Source: Glandiceps talaboti
Lineage: Eukaryota > Hemichordata > Enteropneusta > Spengelidae
DNA length: 64,000 nt
Direction: 5' to 3'
Assembly (NCBI RefSeq): GCF_964340395.1
Contig: NC_135553.1
Span: 24,560,449-24,624,448 of the forward strand
Shown piece after piece: positions 9,065 through 52,840 of the stretch. Positions within the stretch are counted from its first letter, which is position 1. Each line of letters begins with the position of its first letter. Position numbers and translations under genes: made by a program. Below the pieces are notes generated by a model. That model saw only the letters and a list, made by a program, of their open reading frames with translations. It searched no databases and was not told the DNA's origin.

Positions 9065-12000
9065 TATTTGTACTTACTCCTACTTCTCTACTGGTACTTT
9101 TCCCATACTCCTACTGGTCTACTTGTACTTTTCCCATACTCCTACTGGTCTATTTGTACTTTTCCCATACTCCTACTTCTCTACTGGTACTTTTCCCATA
9201 CTCCTACTTGTCTATTTGTACTTTTCCCATACTCCTACTGGTCTACTTGTACTTTTCCCATACTCCTACTTCTCTACTTGTACTTTTCCCATACTCCTAC
9301 TGGTCTACTTATACTTTTCCCATACTCCTACTGGTCTATTTGTACTTTTCCCATACTCCTACTGGTCTATTTGTACTTTTCCCATACTCCTACTGGTCTA
9401 TTTGTACTTTTCCCATACTCCTACTGGTCTATTTGTACTTTTCCCATACTCCTACTTCTCTACTTGTACTTTTCCCATACTCCTACTTCTCTATTTGTAC
9501 TTTTCCCATACTCCTACTGGTCTATTTGTACTTTTCCCATACTCCTACTGGTCTACTTGTACTTTTCCCATACTCCTACAGGTCTAGTTGTACTTTTCCC
9601 ATACTCCTACTTCTCTACTTGTACTTTTCCCATACTCCTACTTCTCTACTTGTACTTTTCCCATACTCCTACTTCTCTACTTGTACTTTTCCCATACTCC
9701 TACAGGTCTATTTGTACTTTTCCCATACTCCTACTGGTCTACTTGTACTTTTCCCATACTCCTACAGGTCTATTTGTACTTTTCCCATACTCCTACTTCT
9801 CTACTTGTACTTTTCCCATACTCCTACTGGTCTACTTGTACTTTTCCCATACTCCTACAGGTCTAGTTGTACTTTTCCCATACTCCTACTTCTCTACTTG
9901 TACTTTTCCCATACTCCTACTTCTCTACTTGTACTTTTCCCATACTCCTACTTCTCTATTTGTACTTTTCCCATACTCCTACTTGTCTATTTGTACTTTT
10001 CCAATACTCCTACTGGTACTTTTCCCATACTCCTACTGGTCTACTTGTACTTTTCCCATACTCCTACTGGTCTACTTGTACTTTTCCCATACTCCTACTG
10101 GTCTACTTGTACTTTTCCCATACTCCTACTGGTCTACTTGTACTTTTCCCATACTCCTACAGGTCTAGTTGTACTTTTCCCATACTCCTACTGGTCTACT
10201 TGTACTTTTCCCATACTCCTACTGGTCTACTTGTACTTTTCCCATACTCCTACTGGTCTATTTGTACTTTTCCCATACTCCTACTGGTCTATTTGTACTT
10301 TTCCCATACTCCTACAGGTCTAGTTGTACTTTTCCCATACTCCTACTGGTCTACTTGTACTTTTCCCATACTCCTACAGGTCTAGTTGTACTTTTCCCAT
10401 ACTCCTACTGGTCTACTTGTACTTTTCCCATACTCCTACTGGTCTACTTGTACTTTTCCCATACTCCTACTGGTACTTTTCCCATACTCCTACTTCTCTA
10501 CTTGTACTTTTCCCATACTCCTACTGGTCTATTTGTACTTTTCCCATACTCCTACTTCTCTACTTGTACTTTTCCCATACTCCTACTTGTCTACTTGTAC
10601 TTTTCCCATACTCCTACTGGTCTATTTGTACTTTTCCCATACTCCTACTTGTCTATTTGTACTTTTCCCATACTCCTACTTCTCTACTTGTACTTTTCCC
10701 ATACTCCTACTGGTCTATTTGTACTTTTCCCATACTCCTACTGGTCTATTTGTACTTTTCCCATACTCCTACTGGTCTATTTGTACTTTTCCCATACTCC
10801 TACTTGTACTTTTCCCATACTCCTACTTGTCTATTTGTACTTTTCCCATACTCCTACTGGTCTACTTGTACTTTTCCCATACTCCTACTGGTCTATTTGT
10901 ACTTTTCCCATACTCCTACTTCTCTACTTGTACTTTTCCCATACTCCTACTTCTCTATTTGTACTTTTCCCATACTCCTACTTGTCTATTTGTACTTTTC
11001 CAATACTCCTACTGGTACTTTTCCCATACTCCTACTGGTCTACTTGTACTTTTCCCATACTCCTACTGGTCTACTTGTACTTTTCCCATACTCCTACTGG
11101 TCTACTTGTACTTTTCCCATACTCCTACTGGTCTACTTGTACTTTTCCCATACTCCTACAGGTCTAGTTGTACTTTTCCCATACTCCTACTGGTCTAGTT
11201 GTACTTTTCCCATACTCCTACTGATCTATTTGTACTTTTCCCATACTCCTACTGGTCTACTTGTACTTTTCCCATACTCCTACTGGTACTTTTCCCATAC
11301 TCCTACTGGTCTATTTGTACTTTTCCCATACTCCTACTGGTCTACTTGTACTTTTCCCATACTCCTACTGGTCTATTTGTACTTTTCCCATACTCCTACT
11401 GGTCTATTTGTACTTTTCCCATACTCCTACTGGTCTACTTGTACTTTTCCCATACTCCTACTGGTCTACTTGTACTTTTCCCATACTCCTACTGGTCTAC
11501 TTGTACTTTTCCCATACTCCTACTTCTCTATTTGTACTTTTCCCATACTCCTACTGGTCTATTTGTACTTTTCCCATACTCCTACTTCTCTACTTGTACT
11601 TTTCCCATACTCCTACTGGTCTACTTGTACTTTTCCCATACTCCTACTGGTCTATTTGTACTTTTCCCATACTCCTACTTGTCTATTTGTACTTTTCCCA
11701 TACTCCTACTGGTCTAGTTGTACTTTTCCCATACTCCTACTGGTCTACTTGTACTTTTCCCATACTCCTACTGGTCTACTTGTACTTTTCCCATACTCCT
11801 ACTGGTCTACTTGTACTTTTCCCATACTCCTACTTGTCTATTTGTACTTTTCCCATACTCCTACTGGTCTATTTGTACTTTTCCCATACTCCTACTTCTC
11901 TACTTGTACTTTTCCCATACTCCTACTGGTCTACTTGTACTTTTCCCATACTCCTACTTCTCTACTTGTACTTTTCCCATACTCCTACTGGTCTACTTGT

Positions 12001-12670
12001 ACTTTTCCCATACTCCTACTGGTCTATTTGTACTTTTCCCATACTCCTACTTGTCTATTTGTACTTTTCCCATACTCCTACTTCTCTACTTGTACTTTTC
12101 CCATACTCCTACTTCTCTATTTGTACTTTTCCCATACTCCTACTGGTCTACTTGTACTTTTCCCATACTCCTACTGGTCTACTTGTACTTTTCCCATACT
12201 CCTACTGGTCTATTTGTACTTTTCCCATACTCCTACTGGTCTACTTGTACTTTTCCCATACTCCTACTGGTCTATTTGTACTTTTCCCATACTCCTACTT
12301 CTCTACTTGTACTTTTCCCATACTCCTACTTGTCTACTTGTACTTTTCCCATACTCCTACTGGTCTATTTGTACTTTTCCCATACTCCTACTTGTCTATT
12401 TGTACTTTTCCCATACTCCTACTTCTCTACTTGTACTTTTCCCATACTCCTACTTCTCTACTTGTACTTTTCCCATACTCCTACTGGTCTACTTGTACTT
12501 TTCCCATACTCCTACTGGTCTATTTGTACTTTTCCCATACTCCTACTGGTCTATTTGTACTTTTCCCATACTCCTACTGGTCTATTTGTACTTTTCCCAT
12601 ACTCCTACTGGTCTATTTGTACTTTTCCCATACTCCTACTGGTCTATTTGTACTTTTCCCATACTCCTAC
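9065..12670. repeat. 31-bp minisatellite, about 116 copies, in the C1q gene intron
   Basis: The unit is about GTACTTTTCCCATACTCCTA then CTGGTCTACTT. Variation is concentrated in the last third (CTGGTCTA, CTTCTCTA, CTTGTCTA, CAGGTCTA), and occasional short units lack the last part. Because 31 is not a multiple of three and the plus-strand unit lacks stops in every frame, long open frames appear in all three plus frames. These are artefacts. In the sense of the C1q transcript the array is pyrimidine-rich. Eight units contain CTCCTACAG|GT, which resembles a 3' splice site after a polypyrimidine tract. The array ends precisely where the duplicated C1q block begins at 12671. Confidence 0.95.
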
Positions 12671-12838
12671 TATGTGTGTGTACGTGTACGTACGTGTGTC
12701 GCTATGATTAGTATTCAGCTTCTGGGCCGAACATGGCAGACGATGTTCAGCGCTGTGTATATTATATGTTGTTTTGCGTTTCTCGGTCTACAAATTCACT
12801 GGTATAGGCAAAACTATAAAATAATAACAATAATGTAC

Positions 12839-12954: not shown

Positions 12955-13116
12955 ATGCATTATTGTTTAAATATTGATTATTTAATAATAATATATATTT
13001 CTATATTTAACCTCACTATTAATATTCAACAACTTATACCATGTGTTTTTCTAGTATCTTTTTTGAAAACTCTCACAACTCAGATTCTCACAATATACAA
13101 TTATGTTGATTTATAG

Positions 13117-13655
13117 GTACTGGGGTCAAAGGTCAAACAGGTCGTCCTGGAAAGGTTGGCCCACAAGGTGTCAAGGAAGATAAAGGAATAAATGGTGGAG
13201 TTGGATTAGCAGGTGTAAAAGGTCAGAAAGGTGAGACACCCAACCAGGTCAAGGTAGCATTCTCTGTAGCAAGACAGAGTGGTATGTCTGGAACCAGTTC
13301 TGAACAAAATATCACTTACACTCACAGCATTGTACAAGAGAATGCCAATATTGATATCAATACTGGTGTGTTTACCTGTCAAGTACCTGGTATCTATTAT
13401 TTCTCTTTTACATTCTATTCTTATTCTGGTAAGATATTGTGGATTTTATTGAAACTCAATGATGAGTACAAGTTTAGAATCTATCAGCCATCACAATCAG
13501 GATATAGAATGCAATCTCAGAGTGGTATGCTACATCTAGGTCAAGGTGATCAAGTCAAATTAGTGTTAGGGGCAGGTACACATTATAGATTTTACTACAC
13601 TACTACTGCTAATTCTCATTATACCAACACCTTCAATGGTTATCTCATCTCATAA
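13117..13655 (+). CDS. Collagen/C1q terminal exon, copy A
   Basis: The exon follows TTGATTTATAG and needs one base from the previous exon (phase 1). It encodes about ten Gly-X-Y triplets (GVKGQTGRPGKVGPQG...), then a C1q domain from about VKVAFSVARQSG to the C-terminal NTFNGYLIS and stop at 13653-13655. Typical C1q marks are the ITYTHSI strand, TGVFTCQVPGIYYFSFTF, MLHLGQGDQVKL and the final GYL.S. Compared with copy B, one triplet glycine is replaced by glutamate (GVKED against GVKGD), which would interrupt the triple helix, and one C1q residue differs (SGKIL against SGKKL). Either it is an alternative last exon or a degrading duplicate. Confidence 0.85.
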
Positions 13656-18275: not shown

Positions 18276-18437
18276 ATGCATTATTGTTTAAATATTGATT
18301 ATTTAATAATAATATATATTTCTATATTTAACCTCACTATTAATATTCAACAACTTATACCATGTGTTTTTCTAGTATCTTTTTTGAAAACTCTCACAAC
18401 TCAGATTCTCACAATATACAATTATGTTGATTTATAG

Positions 18438-18976
18438 GTACTGGGGTCAAAGGTCAAACAGGTCGTCCTGGAAAGGTTGGCCCACAAGGTGTCAAGGGAG
18501 ATAAAGGAATAAATGGTGGAGTTGGATTAGCAGGTGTAAAAGGTCAGAAAGGTGAGACACCAAACCAGGTCAAGGTAGCATTCTCTGTAGCAAGACAGAG
18601 TGGTATGTCTGGAACCAGTTCTGAACAAAATATCACTTACACTCACAGCATTGTACAAGAGAATGCCAATATTGATATCAATACTGGTGTGTTTACCTGT
18701 CAAGTACCTGGTATCTATTATTTCTCTTTTACATTCTATTCTTATTCTGGTAAGAAATTGTGGATTTTATTGAAACTCAATGATGAGTACAAGTTTAGAA
18801 TCTATCAGCCATCACAATCAGGATATAGAATGCAATCTCAGAGTGGTATGCTACATCTAGGTCAAGGTGATCAAGTCAAATTAGTGTTAGGGGCAGGTAC
18901 ACATTATAGATTTTACTACACTACTACTGCTAATTCTCATTATACCAACACCTTCAATGGTTATCTCATCTCATAA
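18438..18976 (+). CDS. Collagen/C1q terminal exon, copy B
   Basis: Same structure as copy A: phase 1 acceptor after TTGATTTATAG, about ten Gly-X-Y triplets, then a C1q domain ending GYLIS with the stop at 18974-18976. Here the collagen run keeps GVKGDKGING without the Gly-to-Glu change. With exon 1 and the 90-base collagen exon it makes a coherent secreted collagen-like C1q protein of roughly 260 residues, depending on the exon 1 donor. C1q-domain proteins with collagen stems form trimers that bind carbohydrates, lipids or microbes in many invertebrates. The ligand here is unknown. Confidence 0.88.
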
Positions 18977-28737: not shown

Positions 28738-29154
<417 letters not shown>

Positions 29155-34267: not shown

Positions 34268-37200
34268 CGATCATCATGAAAATTAGTTCGTTTCAAAATG
34301 ACAAAATATCATTTCTGTTTACAAGGTATTCAAATAAATTTGGTACATCTGGTGATTTTGTTTAGATCTGTTGAAAGAAAAAAATTGGCTTGATTTTGAA
34401 AATTAACCCTGACAGTCAAGGTCAAAGTCTCAAAAGATACCTTGCATCTGATAATATGGGGGTAGACACAGGAATGGGGGAGGAGGATAACAACTACAAT
34501 ATCATTTTTACGAATGACATTTCTACAAAGCAAATCCCAAATTTCACTGATGTCTCATCAGCATCATCAGAAACTTATTGACTGTGAGTAGAGATTTCAT
34601 TACTAAATATGAACCCACAGTATTCATTCTTGTACAAATTATTGTTATCTGTTTTACTTCATTTCACATATTTCATATTTGCTAATGAGTATGAAGCAGA
34701 GAGCTGATGAAGAAGGATATATACCTAAAATATAAATTTCAGAAAGATTTTGACTTGGACAGAACACAACATTCATATGCAAATTCTACATGTCTTCATT
34801 TCTTTGGATTTATTACAAATCTAACTTTGACTAGGATTAAAATTCAGGTGTGAAAAACAGTTGTCTGGTTGTACTCCCAGTACTGCACAAAAAATTGGTC
34901 TGAACAATAAAAAGTGATTCTATGTTATTATTATCGCTCTACTGATAAGATAACATGAATGCAACAACCTGGAATTGAAATCCTTGACTATGACTTTCTC
35001 ACAAATACTTATCAAAGACATTCTCTCTTACCTTCAGTTGTTTGACCGATAGGAGAGTTGGAGGTCTTGGTCGCCATAGCAACTGACAAAATCTATCCAT
35101 GGTTTGCTTGTGGAGAATTCTTCCCTGGAAGTTCCATATCCAGTAAGCATTGTCGACCTAAGTTAAAAGTAATGAACAACATCAAAATGTAGTCATCGCA
35201 GGGTTTCAAATTTACACTAAAAAGAAAAAGAACTGTTTCTGGTCAGGACAGTTTGTCTAAAGTGGTGCTATGGGGTAAATTTTTTTTTATTCTCAACCAG
35301 TCACTCGATCTACTATTTATGGTAGTTACTGTTCTTTTATTTAGTACTTTAGAGCAAGTGTGTATATGGGGCAGATGTCATTTGCTTGTACATGATTGGC
35401 TGTGCAGTTGTCTTCACTGAAGTAGGGAGGATTATTTTTGTGTTTCTCCCCTAGATCTGCAGACTACATGAGCTGGACAAACACGAAAAAAAGGACCAAT
35501 GTGAGGGTATTTAAGTGATGCATGTGCTGACCAGAAACAATTCTCCTTTTTTTGGCCTAAAGGACTTCTTTTTCAAAGGAAGGGTCCATATGGACAAGTA
35601 GTGACAAAACCCCTAAGGTCATTCATACTTTCCTTGGTTGAATAAAGAAAAATACTGGGGAATAAAATCTAATGATTTGAAATGAAAGGTATGACTACGA
35701 ACCTTGTGTCCCCACCAACTGACTCCTGAAATGATATATCTACCAGTCGGATCCCATTCTACGTCAGTTGCCATGAAATGCTCAGCAGTGTTCATGACTG
35801 TAAAGTCAGCTGTGTCAATAAACTCCATGGCACCACTCATACTGCAACACAGTGAATAAACCCATAAGATTTCACACAAACCATTTCAGCCATGAAGTCA
35901 TGACATGTGTAGGTCATATTGAAAACATGACAGATTTCCAGATATGAATACTTTACCATGTAATAGCTCTCAGGATGAATCAATCCTGCACAATTCCTCA
36001 TTTCAAATATTTACGAAATTGTCAAACCACTGCCTTCTAAAATCATAATGTCTATGTTCTCTTTGCAGTTATTCAAAGTAAAGATTCTTCCACTGAACTC
36101 ATAGTCATTCCAAATTCTGAACTCAAATGAAAACTTTTATTGTGCTATACTGAGCAAAGTCATGAAATATGTAAATGATAGAAATGTCCAAACACCTCTG
36201 AAATAATCAGTGTTCTCCTTTGAACATTTTCACAAGAGGGCTCAGCAATATCTTGTAACTCTGGCTGCAATCCATGAAGAGAGAGGGTGTCTTGTATCTG
36301 TTAGCTGCTTTGATAGTATTTATGCAGAAAATGAAGAAGTGGGGAGTATGACTTTTAATACATCAAGCAAGAGGGTGATCAGAGTTTACAAGTAAGCTTA
36401 GCACCCTTGTTATATCATCCAGTGAGAGGGTGATCAGAGTTTACAAGTAAGCTTAGCACCCTTGTTATATCATCCAGCGAGAAAGCTGATAATATTTTTA
36501 TAAACAAATCATGATTACTTACTTCTTTAGACCAGCAAGTACTACAAACTGTCCGGAAGGAGCCCAAAAGATGTGATTTGCCATCTTTTTATCCATCACC
36601 TCTGTCAAAATGGAGACGAAATGAAAGATTCAGTCAACAAGCATTGTCATCAATGATGAGTTATTTGTTGTCAAATAGTATATCTTATACCATTCACAAG
36701 CCAAGATGAACAAAAAACATACAGAATTTGCACTCTGGTTGTTCTACATCATCACAACATGTGTCTATGTCACAACAACGCGTGTCTACATCACTGGTTT
36801 TGCTGTGTTTGAAAACATTCAAAAGTGCCATTACTTTCCCAAATGTTTCTATGATATTACTGCTGTTGCCATAATTATGTTATTCTTCAATATTTTTTTG
36901 GATATCATGCTCTATGATAGTCACAACAGACATTATGACAAGATGTTCATTACCTCACATTCCAACAAAGATTATACTTACTCAGCTGTTCAACTTTGCC
37001 CTTTGTCACATGATAAAAACTGGCTGATATGCGAGGGTTTTCTCCGTGAAGAACGGCAAACTTTGAACCATTCGGCTCCCATGCAAATGCCAGTATGCCT
37101 TCCTTTATTTCAACTTGTTCCACAGGAATCTGTTTTTCCCTCATACGGAATATTTCAAAGTTACAGAACATAGCCTGGTAAATGAAACACAAAGAAACAG

Positions 37201-40200
37201 AATAAATGAGCATCCTACAAATTGTAATACCAATATTTGTCTCTCCCTATTTTGATAATAATGCTGTTGTCACAGTTACGTATTCATGTTATCTAGTATG
37301 CTTGCTATATAAATGCCGTCAATATTGCTATTGCTTCTGGCACGATTTTTAAATTTTCATCCATAACCTACACTTATTCAGATGCCCAGTGTGCAGAAAT
37401 TTGGTATATTTTGGTTAACCCACTGAGCAGCCATGTATGAAACAAGCGTCACAAATGAGTGCCTCAGATGAGAGAAAATAAGGGTTAAAATCACATGGCA
37501 GTACATGAAGCTGTCAACAAAATGTTGTTAACACAATTTGAGTTCTAAAATTTGCGTGATCTCAGAATACTTTAACTGGTTGAAAATGTAACCAATATAA
37601 AACACTAGGACATGATGAATTTTCAAAGGCTATGGTACTCAAATATCTTGGCCCTCACTTCTCGGCCAAAGGCTGCCTCCGAACAGCACCCCTAGTGGCC
37701 AAACTACACAATCTTTTGTCTTTCTGATAACCAGACTATGGTATATTGCTTACACAAATCATACTGAACTATGCAACAGTATCAATGGAATGATAAAATC
37801 TCTATGAAACTGTGTCAGAAAGTGCTCTCGTTCAGTAACGTTAAGGAGAATATTATCAGATTTAACTAATATTATGTTTTAAGAGTAAATCTAGGTACAT
37901 ACAATAAATGCCTGGTCTAAATTTACATTTAGCACACTTAATAGGTTCATACAACAAAGCCAAGTTCACAGTGAGTGGCTAACAAGTCACATTCTTACCT
38001 TCTTACTCTTTGTGAATCGATCTACTTTGACACACAAAAACTCTCCCTTGTTCTGCCAATGCATTTTACATTCCCCAACATTAAACAGATTTTTCACACG
38101 GATTTCTTTTCTGGAAGGTATTTCTAGGAGTGTGACACGGGCTGGTATATCGTTACGCTCTGGGGTCCAATATGCAATGACGTAATCACTAGGTGACCAT
38201 GAGAAATCCCTTCAAGAAAAATAATGACGGTCATACTGGAGGGGCACATTGTGATTATAATGAGTGAGGGGGGTTGGGGGTCAACAAATTCACTTCATAA
38301 TCCATTCTTGGTCACCATGACTAAGTCTACGACTTGAGGAAAGAAGTACATGCTATCATACACTAATCTTTGGCCCTATTTACACAATGTCATTTTGAAA
38401 TGAAAATGCATTTATTTTGTTGTGTTTGCATCTTCCATTTACAGAGATGTCAGAAACACACATGACAATGCAACATTTTGAAAATGCTGAATGCAGATTG
38501 TTTTCCTTCAAAAAGAGTCTTGTTTTCCTTCAAAAACATGTCTAAGTATGAAAATGGAGATTCAAATATGCATCACACAAACGACCGAAGAAGGAACAAT
38601 TAAAAAACGCTGAAACCATTGATGACATACTTACGCATGCACTAAACTATTGTGTTATGTTTGCATGTATGCAACAGCATCATTTTCAATTTGTTCCACA
38701 TTCGGTGTCTGCTTAAATGGTCAAAATGTTTGTCGGCCTATAGGCTATAGTGTAAGCACATTAAAATACATTCAAACGAAATAACATTACAGATTTTTAT
38801 TGTTTTGATTTGACAATGTCACTATATACATGCAGACTTAAACGACAAATGTCATATTAAGATTTAGGTGTGAATGATAGTTGTCTAGTAGATCTGTAAA
38901 GAATTACCATATCTAATCCAGATAAGATATTACTAATACTAATCCAAAACCATGGGATTCAAACATTGGATTTTAAAGACCTGGTATTGAATCTTTGGCC
39001 TTTAACAAGTAGTAACTAAGATAACCAAATCGTACACAATAAACAAATATAAACACATCTTGTACTTACTTAATTTCTTCGATCTTTATACTTTTCTTTT
39101 CTAAAAGACCAAATGACTGAAAAATAAAGATGACATGATATAAAGTACATACACCATTATGTGTTTGATACATACACCACTAAGTGTTGTAATGGATACT
39201 TACTGGTGTTTGATACATACACCACTATGTGTTTGATACATACACCACTATGTGTTGTAATGGATACTTACTGGTGTTTGATACATACACCACTATGTGT
39301 TGTAGTGGATACTTACTGGTGTTTGATACATACACCACTATGTGTTGTAGTGGATACTTACTGGTGTTTGACACATACACCACTAAGTGTTGTAGTGGAT
39401 ACTTACTGGTGTTTGATACATACACCACTATGTGTTGCAGTGGATACTTACTGGTGTTTGATACATACACCACTATGTGCTGTAGTGGATAGTTACTGGT
39501 GTTTGATACATACACCACTATGTGTTGTAGTGGATACTTACTGGTGTTTGATACATACACCACTATGTGTTGTAGTGGATACTTACTGGTGTTTGATACA
39601 TACACCACTATGTGTTGTAGTGGATACTTACTGGTGTTTGATACATACACCACTATGTGTTGTGGTGGATACTTACTGGTGTTTGACACATACACCACTA
39701 TGTGTTGTAATGGATACTTACTGGTGTTTGATACATACACCACTATGTGTTGTAGTGGATACTTACTGGTGTTTGATACATACACCACTAAGTGTTGTTG
39801 TGGATACTTACTGGTGTTTGATACATACACCACTATGTGTTGTAGTGGATACTTACTGGTATTTGATACATACACCACTAAGTGTTGTTGTGGATACTTA
39901 CTGGTGTTTGATACATACACCACTATGTGTTGTAATGGATACTTACTGGTGTTTGATACATACACCACTATGTGTTGTAGTGGATACTTACTGGTGTTTG
40001 ATACATACACCACTAAGTGTTGTTGTGGATACTTACTGGTGTTTGATACATACACCACTATGTGTTGTGGTAGATACTTACTGGTATTTGATACATACAC
40101 CACTAAGTGTTGTTGTGGATACTTACTGGTGTTTGATACATACACCACTATGTGTTGTAATGGATACTTACTGGTGTTTGATACATACACCACTATGTGT

Positions 40201-43200
40201 TGTAGTGGATACTTACTGGTGTTTGATACATACACCACCATTGTGTTGTAGTGGATACTTACTGGTGTTTGATACATACACCACTATGTGTTGTAGTGGA
40301 TACTTACTGGTGTTTGATACATACACCACTATGTGTTGTAGTGGATACTTACTGGTGTTTGATACATACACCACTATGTGTTGTAGTGGATACTTACTGG
40401 TGTTTGATACATACACCACTATGTGTTGTAGTGGATACTTACTGGTGTTTGATACATACACCACTATGTGTTGTAGTGGATACTTACTGGTGTTTGACAC
40501 ATACACCACTATGTGTTGTAGTGGATACTTACTGGTATTTGACACATACACCACTATGTGTTGTAGTGGATACTTACTGGTGTTTGATACATACACCACT
40601 ATGTGTTGTAGTGGATACTTACTGGTGTTTGACACATACACCACTATGTGTTGTGGTAGATACTTACTGGTGTTTGACACATACACCACTATGTGTTGTA
40701 GTGGATACTTACTGGTGTTTGATACATACACCACTATGTGTTGTGGTGGATACTTACTGGTGTTTGATACATACACCACCATTGTGTTGTAGTGGATACT
40801 TACTGGTGTTTGACACATACACCACTATGTGTTGTGGTAGATACTTACTGGTGTTTGACACATACACCACTATGTGTTGTAGTGGATACTTACTGGTGTT
40901 TGACACATACACCACTATGTGTTGTAGTGGATACTTACTGGTGTTTGACACATACACCACTATGTGTTGTAGTGGATACTTACTGGTGTTTGATACATAC
41001 ACCACTATGTGTTGTGGTGGATACTTACTGGTGTTTGATACATACACCACCATTGTGTTGTAGTGGATACTTACTGGTGTTTGACACATACACCACTATG
41101 TGTTGTAGTGGATACTTACTGGTGTTTGACACATACACCACTATGTGTTGTAGTGGATACTTACTGGTGTTTGATACATACACCACTATGTGTTGTAGTG
41201 GATACTTACTGGTGTTTGACACATACACCACTATGTGTTGTGGTAGATACTTACTGGTGTTTGACACATACACCACTATGTGTTGTAGTGGATACTTACT
41301 GGTGTTTGATACATACACCACTATGTGTTGTGGTGGATACTTACTGGTGTTTGATACATACACCACCATTGTGTTGTAGTGGATACTTACTGGTGTTTGA
41401 CACATACACCACTATGTGTTGTGGTAGATACTTACTGGTGTTTGACACATACACCACTATGTGTTGTAGTGGATACTTACTGGTGTTTGACACATACACC
41501 ACTATGTGTTGTAGTGGATACTTACTGGTGTTTGACACATACACCACTATGTGTTGTAGTGGATACTTACTGGTGTTTGATACATACACCACTATGTGTT
41601 GTAGTGGATACTTACTGGTGTTTGATACATACACCACCATTGTGTTGTAGTGGATACTTACTGGTGTTTGACACATACACCACTATGTGTTGTAGTGGAT
41701 ACTTACTGGTGTTTGACACATACACCACTATGTGTTGTGGTGGATACTTACTGGTGTTTGATACATACACCACTAAGTGTTGTAATGGATACTTACTGGT
41801 GTTTGACACATACACCACTATGTGTTGTAGTGGATACTTACTGGTGTTTGATACATATACCACTATGTGTTGTAGTGGATACTTACTGGTGTTTGATACA
41901 TACACCACTATGTGTTGTAGTGGATACTTACTGGTGTTTGATACATACACCACTATGTGTTGTAATGGATACTTACTGGTGTTTCATATGTACTAAGACT
42001 ATCTGGCCCCATCCGTGAGAAGTATTTGCCATCATAACTCCATCTGAGTAAAACAAAAAAGTTATAAATGTGAAAATGCACACCCTATACTTGCCTGCAT
42101 AAAACTGGTACTTGGTGTACATAGGACACAAATAACTGAAAAGAACTGTATTCTTGTATGCAAATCAATGCATGAACATTCCATACATATGCACAGTTAT
42201 TCAACTTTCAAGTGAAAATTTGCCATTTCAGATAAAAGACTTTAAAAGTTATGTCATCTGTAATGAAGTTTGCTGAATTTTTTGGACTATCGGTAGTTGA
42301 GAATGTTAAATATTTGCTATGAGACACGAACAAGTAATGATAATTCATAAAGACTGCTAGTATTTATACCTACTTTGGCCCTCATTTCTGATCCAAACAC
42401 TGCTTATGAACAGCACTCCTAGTGGCCATACTACATAATCTTTTGTTTTTCTAATAAGGAATATGACACATTGGATGGCTAACACTTACTTGAATATTGG
42501 CCAATGTGCAGCATTTTCACAATGGAAGCCTCGTTTCTTAGCTCCTGTAAGTACATTCCAGATGATAATAGCCTGTGGATCATCCTTGGTGTCAACCATA
42601 GGACTAAATGTCACAATGTAGCTAAAAACAGACACAGAAAACACATTAAACTTTCACATTGTATCACACAAGATGGAATAGCAATGTCTGATATCTCATA
42701 ACCATTACGGATTGTACAGCAATCTATTACTGTATGAATTTAGACTGCCACTGTAATATGCAAGTTGTAAACAGCACAACAATAGTTGTAGGCAATGAAA
42801 TTTTGTATTTGAACTCTTCAAACTTTTTAAAATATCGGATTCCATACATTTGTTGTCTCATTGCCAAAAACAAGAGAAAATACACGAACACTCTAATTTG
42901 ACAATCAATAACACTTTGCAACCCCCCCCCCCCCCCCCACCATTTCAAACAGGGAAATACAAACACAGACATGAAACCCATTATCATTCACAGGGTGAGA
43001 AATGCATAGAAATACAAACACAGACAATCTATTACCTTTCACAGGGTGAGAAATACATAGAAATACGTATACACTGATATTTGAAATCCATTACCTTTCA
43101 CAGGGTGAGAAATCAATGAGCTGTACTCCAGGGTGGTTGAATCTCATAATTTGTTTGAACTTTTCACCAGCCCACAGAGCTATACCTCGTTGATGGAATG

Positions 43201-49904: not shown

Positions 49905-52840
49905 ATGGTTGGCTTTGATTCAGCAAAGGAAGTGCATCTGTCATCCCTTCAGTATGGAGCTGCTGGTGCCATTAGTGGCGTGGTGATGAGGGTATTTGCC
50001 CAGCCACTGGATGTACTCAAAATACGATTTCAGGTAAAGAACGTACACACCATAATTATTTGAGGGTGTTTGCCCAGATTCTGATGCACATGAAAGAGAA
50101 GACTACATTTTGAAAAAAATGCTGCAGGAGCATGTTTGGACAAAGAATTTGACATACAAAAATCACAATCTATTGTGTAATGATACAAAAATATAGATCA
50201 AGAACAGAACTATGTGAAATTTATAATATTGTTGTTTTGATTTTAGCTTCAGGTAGAGTCTATGTACAGTAAAAGAGCCAAGTACCATGGAGTGACACAG
50301 GCTACTCAAACTATCTTTAAAGAAGAAGGAGTAACAGCATTCTGGAAAGGACATGTACCAGCTCAATTTTTATGTATTGTCTTTGGCAGTGCACAGGTAA
50401 TCACAAAATAGTTCAATACTATCACCAATGTACAGTTTGTACATCAGTCCACCACTGTTATCACAGTGTGCCAGGTTCTTGCAAACTGGACAGTTCAAAG
50501 CAATCCATTGTGTCATCTCTTTCAGTTTATAGTATTTTTTTAGATAGGTACTGAATAGTGAGTGAATGTATTCAATGTGGAAAATGTTTCAGATATAAGA
50601 GATAAGCATCAACCACTACAGAAATGTGTGTTTATTAGCGATAATGGTATCTAATCAACTATGACAGAAAAATTGGTCCCCTTTGTCCTGATGTAAAGTT
50701 TATAACCTATCACCTTGATTACTTGATCTGATTGGATAAACATTGGTGATAACAAAAAAACAAACATTCAAACTGCCAAGTTATGGTGCAATTAGATATT
50801 ATTCCTAATTTTTCTCTTCATTCAGGTGCAAAAAATATGAGTGACATAAGGGGCATTGTCACTATGAGTGAGACGAGTAGTGATGAAAGCTGTATGTCAC
50901 ATGTATTGTCCAGCTGAATGATGACAACTGTTGGAGAATAACAATATAAATACACCCATGCAAGATTAACTCAATAAAAAGTGGGGGAAATGGTGGCAAA
51001 TTTCATATGTGAGCACCACAGAACCAATAACATAGATCCATGTCATGATGTAGAACAAACAGGGATAGGAATTCTGTATTTACTGTTCAGACATCAATAA
51101 CTTGACTTGTGCATGGTGCCAGAGAACTTGTCTGATTCATTCAAAAATGACATGGGTAGGATTGATGTCCATCAATAAAGTCTTTCTCTTTCTTCTTTTT
51201 TCTTTTTCTAGTTTATTTCATTTGAATGGATAACACAAGTTGGTTACAGTGCATTACCAGAGAAGTGGAGTAGTGGTCACTACAAGCCAGTGTATCATTT
51301 CCTGTGTGGAGGTATTTCAGGCTGTTTAGCAAGCACAGCTTCACAGCCTTTCGATGTAGTCAGAACGCGACTTATAGCACAAAGTGAACCCAAGGTATGT
51401 GTGTGATTGATGAGATTTACAGCATCACTAGACAGCCTGACGGGATAGATAGGTTGTGTTAGTGAATCACTAGACAACCTGACAGGATAGATAGGTTGTG
51501 TTAGTGAATCACTAGACAACCTGACAGGATAGATAGGTTGTGTTAGTGAATCACTAGACAACCGGACAGGATAGGTTGTGTTAGTGAATCACTAGACAAC
51601 CTGACAGGATAGATAGGTTGTGTTAGTGAATCACTAGACAACCTGACAGGATAGATAGATTGTGTTAGTGAATCACTAGACAACCTGACAGGATAGATAG
51701 GTTGTGTTAGTGAATCACTAGACAACCTGACAGGATAGATAGGTTGCGTTAGTGAATCACTAGACAACCTGACAGGATAGATAGGTTGTGTTAGTGAATC
51801 ACTAGACAACCTGACAGGATAGATAGATTGTGTTAGTGAATCACTAGACAACCTGACAGGATAGATAGGTTGTGTTAGTGAATCACTAGACAACCTGACA
51901 GGATAGATAGGTTGTGTTAGTGAATCACTAGACAACCTGACAGGATAGATAGATTGCGTTAGTGAATCACTAGACAACCTGACAGGATATATAGGTTGTG
52001 TTAGTGAATCACTAGACAACCTGACAGGATATATAGATTGTGTTAGTGAATCACTAGACAACCTGACAGGATAGATAGGTTGTGTTAGTGAATCACTAGA
52101 CAACCTGACAGGATATATAGGTTGTGTTAGTGAATCACTAGACAACCTGACAGGATATATAGATTGTGTTAGTGAATCACTAGACAACCTGACAGGATAG
52201 ATAGGTTGTGTTAGTGAATCACTAGACAACCTGACAGGATAGATAGGTTGTGTTAGTGAATCACTAGACAACCTGACAGGATAGATAGGTTGTGTTAGTG
52301 AATCACTAGACAACCTGACAGGATAGATAGGTTGTGTTAGTGAATCACTAGACAACCTGACAGGATAGATAGGTTGTGTTAGTGAATCACTAGACAACCT
52401 GACAGGATAGATAGGTTGTGTTAGTGAATCACTAGACAACCTGACAGGATAGATAGGTTGTGTTAGTGAATCACTAGACAACCTGACAGGATAGATAGGT
52501 TGTGTTAGTGAATCACTAGACAGCCTGACGGGATAGATAGGTTGTGTTAGTGAATCACTAGACAACCTGACAGGATAGATAGGTTGTGTTAGGGAATCAC
52601 TAGACAACCTGACAGGATAGATAGGTTGTGTTAGTGAATCACTAGACAACCTGACAGGATAGATAGGTTGTGTTAGTGAATCACTAGACAACCTGACAGG
52701 ATAGATAGGTTGCGTTAGTGAATCACTAGACTGATATTAAAGCTTTTTGTCAAGAGGCCTATGATGTCCTTCCTTTTTTTAGCCCTAAACAGTCAAGTCC
52801 AGATGGGGCTATAGGATTGGATTCCATTAATTTGTGTGTT

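Follow-up and report, generated by a model that had tools for sequence, protein, structure and literature searches.

Most of an eIF3b intron in the hemichordate Glandiceps talaboti, from the donor at 41977/41976 onward, consists of a 45-bp tandem repeat. We consider it very probable that this array is a minisatellite of the type called a "mirage", seeded on an exon edge and expanded under near-neutrality, with splicing still using the exon-adjacent donor. The array lies in a window of 64,000 nucleotides, the whole stretch of DNA that was analysed, and coordinates refer to this window unless a sampled piece or another contig is named. The repeat overlaps the edge of a coding exon, its copies form repeated blocks, and similar structures are found at the exon edges of other genes.

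The tandem array and its host gene

The joined exon series of the host gene matches solved eIF3b (E 6.2e-101), which bears out the assignment made in the preliminary description. Two eIF3b exons are found on the minus strand within 39.1-42.05 kb. The one before the array (67 nt, 41977..42043) lies within the eIF3b protein match and ends CCA/GTAAGTATC, its tail being the proposed seed of the repeat. The intron that follows (41976-39117, minus strand, 2861 nt) opens with GTAAGTAT at 41969..41976 on the same strand, which is read from the sequence as the authentic 5' splice site and is complementary to U1 5' ends. It closes with the AG of the 3' splice site (39117..39118, minus strand), and the next eIF3b exon starts at 39116.

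Tandem Repeats Finder places the 45-bp repeat at 39229-41988, with 61.2 copies and 95% matches. When the array was cut at the donor, 62 donor-position units of 45-46 bp were counted with the authentic donor included (39167..41984, minus strand; unit 1 overlaps the exon by 8 nt, and a 23-bp short copy lies inside the span). This confirmed the earlier estimate of about 62 tandem donor-bearing 45-bp units beginning at the exon donor. The spacings between donors (n=61) are 45 bp in 55 cases, 46 bp in five and 68 bp in one, the last consisting of one unit and then the 23-bp short copy. Splice signals are thus present in many copies, with GTAAGTAT intact in 61 of the 62 units when the authentic donor is counted. 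The core is broken in unit 56 alone (39460..39504, minus strand, with the array split at the donor), where GTAACTAT is found at 39504, in agreement with the single exception that had been described before. As unit 1 is the authentic exon edge, the intron holds 61 candidate decoys, 60 of them with an intact core. From -8 to +9, 58 of the 62 units are identical, as counted by hand from the unit rows. No donor follows the last unit. The distal edge of the array (39146..39234, minus strand) is composed of the 23-bp short copy (39212-39234), unit 62 (39167-39211) and a partial short copy (39146-39166), and both short copies are without the donor segment.

The 62 units fall into 17 types. In the string of unit types, units 10-19 (41128..41578, minus strand) and units 23-32 (40541..40991, minus strand) have the same series, so that one block is repeated 13 units apart. 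These block duplications, together with the small number of types, point to recent homogenisation within the cluster, and intact cores are what would remain after such a process.

Proposed seeding on the exon edge and alternative readings

The unit had been described as built from the exon-intron boundary, and comparison with the exon supports this. In a gapped alignment, the 3' part of the unit agrees with the final 29 nt of the exon at 22 of 29 positions. None of 2000 exon-tail shuffles equalled this match, a result which shows the array reaching before its first donor, as at any array edge, and which is informative about exon origin only for stretches proven to be coding, as in eIF3b, SURF1, histidine ammonia-lyase and Pellino. 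The last 17 nt of the exon match the unit at 14 of 17 positions without gaps, a score reached by none of the 19028 17-mers of the window. From the exon-tail match, the unit can be understood as exon tail plus intron head, spanning the exon-intron boundary of its own host gene. The three mismatches between unit and exon within those 17 nt sit in columns that are invariant among the units (columns 41, 42, and 46), suggesting that one copy diverged before the expansion.

In the mechanism that we propose, a tandem duplication would have included some 28 nt from the end of the eIF3b exon and some 17 nt from the start of the intron, and the intronic copy would then have diverged slightly. Growth to about 62 copies inside the intron may have proceeded through slippage and through exchange or duplication of multi-unit blocks. 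The strong donor in each copy would be there because the donor lay in the seed, and not through upkeep. Slippage from a boundary duplication was one of the options given in the preliminary description, and it fits best because exon edges of other genes show the same structure.

Reading on past the exon, unit 1 encodes VSIHYNT and then an in-frame TAG, so any use of a decoy, or retention of the intron, would bring a stop into frame. For this reason the exon-adjacent, 5'-most donor is most likely the one used by the spliceosome; the array would then be removed with the intron and most likely does nothing. It should be kept in mind that competing identical donors do not always resolve to the exon-adjacent copy. 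For the 151 nt around the first units, folding was somewhat better than in shuffled sequences (z -2.33, with 5 of 200 as good), which leaves room for a role at the RNA level.

The same in-frame TAG is what would make decoy use unproductive if the decoys were maintained by selection, with competing donors shunting some transcripts to stop-containing, decayed mRNA and in this way tuning eIF3b output. The 61 intact cores and the 58 units identical across the donor region also speak for such maintenance. However, variability within the core was not significantly lower than in the other columns: 12 of the 46 columns of the aligned units vary, 1 of 8 within GTAAGTAT and 11 of the 38 outside it (Fisher p=0.66 over 62 units, a comparison of low power since variation is low), and 20 of the 46 windows of eight columns contain at most one variable column. 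The claim that variation avoids the core was correct in that 11 of the 12 variable columns fall outside it, but this is no more than chance gives, and the proposed check of intact cores against variation elsewhere in the unit revealed no special avoidance. Arrays of the same kind in unrelated genes, and the donors of the SURF1 array described below, which vary at +6 and +7, also argue against maintained decoys, a reading that we consider improbable.

A U1 search of the genome gave 17 matches above the family cut-off and 3 below, and the four U1 genes that were read among those matched all start with ATACTTACCTG. With such 5' ends, GUAAGUAU pairs with U1 positions 1-8, so the perfect 8-nt pairing noted earlier is upheld by the genome's own U1. 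This complementarity of the core to the U1 of the organism would be expected of selected decoys. It would also suit an array acting as a platform on which dense U1 binding stops premature intronic polyadenylation or sequesters U1 locally. Without the array, though, the 2861-nt intron would be very short and would leave little to protect, and the core shows no special conservation here either, so we rate a U1 platform as somewhat less probable still than maintained decoys. Lower again stands the possibility that the assembly inflated a far shorter array: the repeated 10-unit block could be over-assembled, but the 17 unit types follow an ordered pattern, other long arrays are present in the same assembly, and the boundary origin would hold even for a short array. 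Tandem arrays inside mobile elements are known, yet carriage of the repeats by such an element (Helitron core repeats or introner-like), and not local boundary duplication, is the least probable explanation of all, given that the unit matches the adjacent coding exon, that outside the array the 15-mer ACACCAGTAAGTATC is matched exactly 4 times, compared with 3 times genome-wide for its reversed-letter control, and that the boundary arrays which were read have different unit sequences in different genes.

Similar arrays in the genome

Exon-edge seeding as proposed for eIF3b was also looked for in a sample of nineteen 10-kb pieces, with coordinates picked regardless of content, and two window flanks (209.9 kb, 5 kb of it N). 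This sample contains 18 arrays with a period of at least 20 and at least 3 copies, and the sampled genome is rich in minisatellites. One of the 18 is a boundary array, a number to be read as a lower bound, the other 17 having been judged by eye and by submitting six ORFs to Pfam. It is found at a SURF1 exon edge (piece L025), where a 49-bp array carries 7 donors at exact 49-bp spacing. The SURF1 exon was identified by Pfam (1.2e-8) with a match to residue 55 of 56, and the donors of its array vary at +6 and +7, as in GTAAGTGT and GTAAGATT. The six ORFs near sampled arrays gave one Pfam match, a Hikeshi exon in L019 that lies about 240 bp from the array and not at its edge. In another piece (L024, 9320-10000), a 76-bp array begins within the final codons and stop of an ORF of 99 aa, which has no Pfam match.

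When three GTAAGTAT spaced 30-60 bp apart were sought across the genome, 3801 matches were obtained, against 2124 for the reversed-letter control. Among the matches listed, 14 other distinct GTAAGTAT arrays were taken from contigs C1, C2, and the start of C4. We could follow 12 of the 14 to their 5' edge (the arrays of L035/L053 and L041/L054 being the other two), and 5 of these 12 begin at an apparent exon donor. Exon-edge status was judged by eye, as an open frame (with an acceptor where visible) ending at the first donor; this is a subjective call that would miss non-coding exons, and arrays judged non-exonic (for example L042 and L046) can likewise have an open frame, up to about 50 aa long, that ends at a donor. 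For two of the five, histidine ammonia-lyase and Pellino, the family assignment is supported at a value below 0.001, and the protein match stops no more than two residues short of the donor. The histidine ammonia-lyase exon ending at its array matches a PDB structure at 6.2e-9, to residue 34 of 36, and Pfam at 2.1e-5, which is below the curated cut-off. For the Pellino exon, which also ends at its array, the values are 1.7e-13 in Pfam, to residue 33 of 33, and 2.9e-11 in PDB. A plexin-like exon at an array edge has a weak match (0.096), and no family was found for the edge ORFs of L037 and L048.

The other seven of the 12 edges have no recognisable exon, so that many arrays with donors do not qualify as boundary arrays; a search with the peptides of L042 and L045 found no family match. 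In two arrays, L046 and L036, the units carry an AG/GTAAGT acceptor-donor junction, and no exon was recognised at the edge. Junctions of this form resemble recursive splice sites.

Boundary arrays are therefore firm in four genes (eIF3b, SURF1, histidine ammonia-lyase, and Pellino) and probable in three (two unnamed ORFs and the plexin-like gene). For each of the seven, the sequence preceding the first donor matches the unit, with 0 of 2000 shuffles as good, and every boundary array that was read has a unit sequence particular to its gene. With SURF1 and the others showing the same structure, the eIF3b array is not unique.

The donor word itself does not appear to be preferred. On contig C1, 6 distinct arrays carry GTAAGTAT and at least 10 carry the control word, although two of the 10 look like a TATG microsatellite; these counts indicate no preferential donor seeding for the GTAAGTAT word. 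Outside arrays, the donor word and the reversed word are about equally frequent (16 vs 19 in 227 kb). The search with CAGGTAAG gave 1912 matches against 579 for the reversed-letter control, and the matches clump. Strong recruitment of donors by arrays was rejected because the matches clump for both words and on the C1 counts; the CAGGTAAG excess over the control may reflect some seeding bias. A broader proposal, which we find doubtful, is that, throughout the lineage, new minisatellites arise preferentially at 5' splice sites, lengthening many introns with copies of their own donors, and that splicing picks the exon-adjacent copy by position alone. If true, such a bias would keep decoy donors, and with them seeds for new introns, constantly available.

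Known systems and other features of the assembly

The original report of mirages is said to be the one in Nucl Acids Res 2002 30:2871. In lancelets, they are described as tandem repeats spanning exon-intron boundaries of Adh3, globin, troponin C, and PGBD5 (PMC3087553, PMC3902484). From Adh3 data and globin RT-PCR, regular splicing seemed undisturbed (PMC3087553), and length and somatic instability are cited (PMC3087553, PMC3902484). As in those accounts, the eIF3b copies span an exon-intron boundary, many of them carry splice signals and the cluster is homogenised, and the unit of 45-46 bp is inside the published range of 10-72 bp for Adh3, with 150-160 bp for globin (PMC3087553). The eIF3b array differs from them in its length, about 62 units against 6 and 3 in two BflGb6 haplotypes (PMC3087553, PMC3902484), and in its host, a hemichordate and not a lancelet, where it is known from the sequence of one assembly. 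Among the papers listed in our literature search there was no report of mirage-type arrays in hemichordates, which is weak evidence of absence. The Rogers model, as presented in PMC3087553, derives new introns from tandemly duplicated AG/GT proto-splice sites; it shares with our reading a duplication that carries splice signals, but no new intron is evident at eIF3b, where the array sits inside an intron. The C. elegans minisatellite CeRep25B, described as mostly intronic and with a proposed link to splicing (PMC4039745), is one family at several loci, whereas the boundary arrays found here each carry the sequence of their own exon.

The published boundary arrays that we cite were reported gene by gene in lancelets, and here they occur in several genes of one hemichordate genome. 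With about 60 intact donors beside the authentic one, differing from it essentially in position, the eIF3b array offers a natural experiment on donor choice and also on whether such arrays can seed introns.

Two other repeats in the window were considered as boundary arrays and left unsupported: a 55-bp repeat at 36361-36482, on our reading of the sequence, and a 42-bp array at 51424, whose unit does not span an exon edge. The latter (51424-52731, plus strand, about 31 copies) begins some 30 bp into an intron of a mitochondrial-carrier gene. Near-identical duplicated C1q-type exons are found at 13110-13655 and 18431-18976 on the plus strand, the first of them identified as C1q by Pfam, and a 61-bp tandem array begins about 64 bp beyond each (13719, 19040). 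A 31-bp array of about 117 copies (9075-12671) lies upstream of the first of these exons and probably belongs to an intron of the same gene. An uninterrupted histone H3 ORF (28738-29154, minus strand) is located between other genes.

The mitochondrial genome (15,435 bp, 53% GC) was found on the 51,222-bp contig C40 (L012, L013), which holds three COX1 copies head to tail. Its genes were named from ORFs, with COX1, COX3, and CYTB checked against solved structures. The order of genes and tRNAs is broadly vertebrate-like and differs from that given for Asymmetron and for Branchiostoma/Epigonichthys (PMC2034537). On this difference, and because ATA is found mostly at isoleucine positions, a lancelet source, which the mirage literature had suggested, was rejected in favour of a hemichordate. 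CYTB lies between ATP6 and COX3, in contrast to the nd5-cob neighbourhood given for hemichordates in PMC2697986. According to the same source, ATA=Ile is common to echinoderms and hemichordates, and AAA is absent in Balanoglossus (PMC2697986). Here the AAA codon occurs twice in the ten mitochondrial genes counted, both times at the ND5 end. COX1, COX3, and CYTB together contain 25 ATA codons, and when these were compared by eye with the best solved match, 14 stood opposite Ile, 4 opposite Val, 1 opposite Met and 6 opposite other residues.
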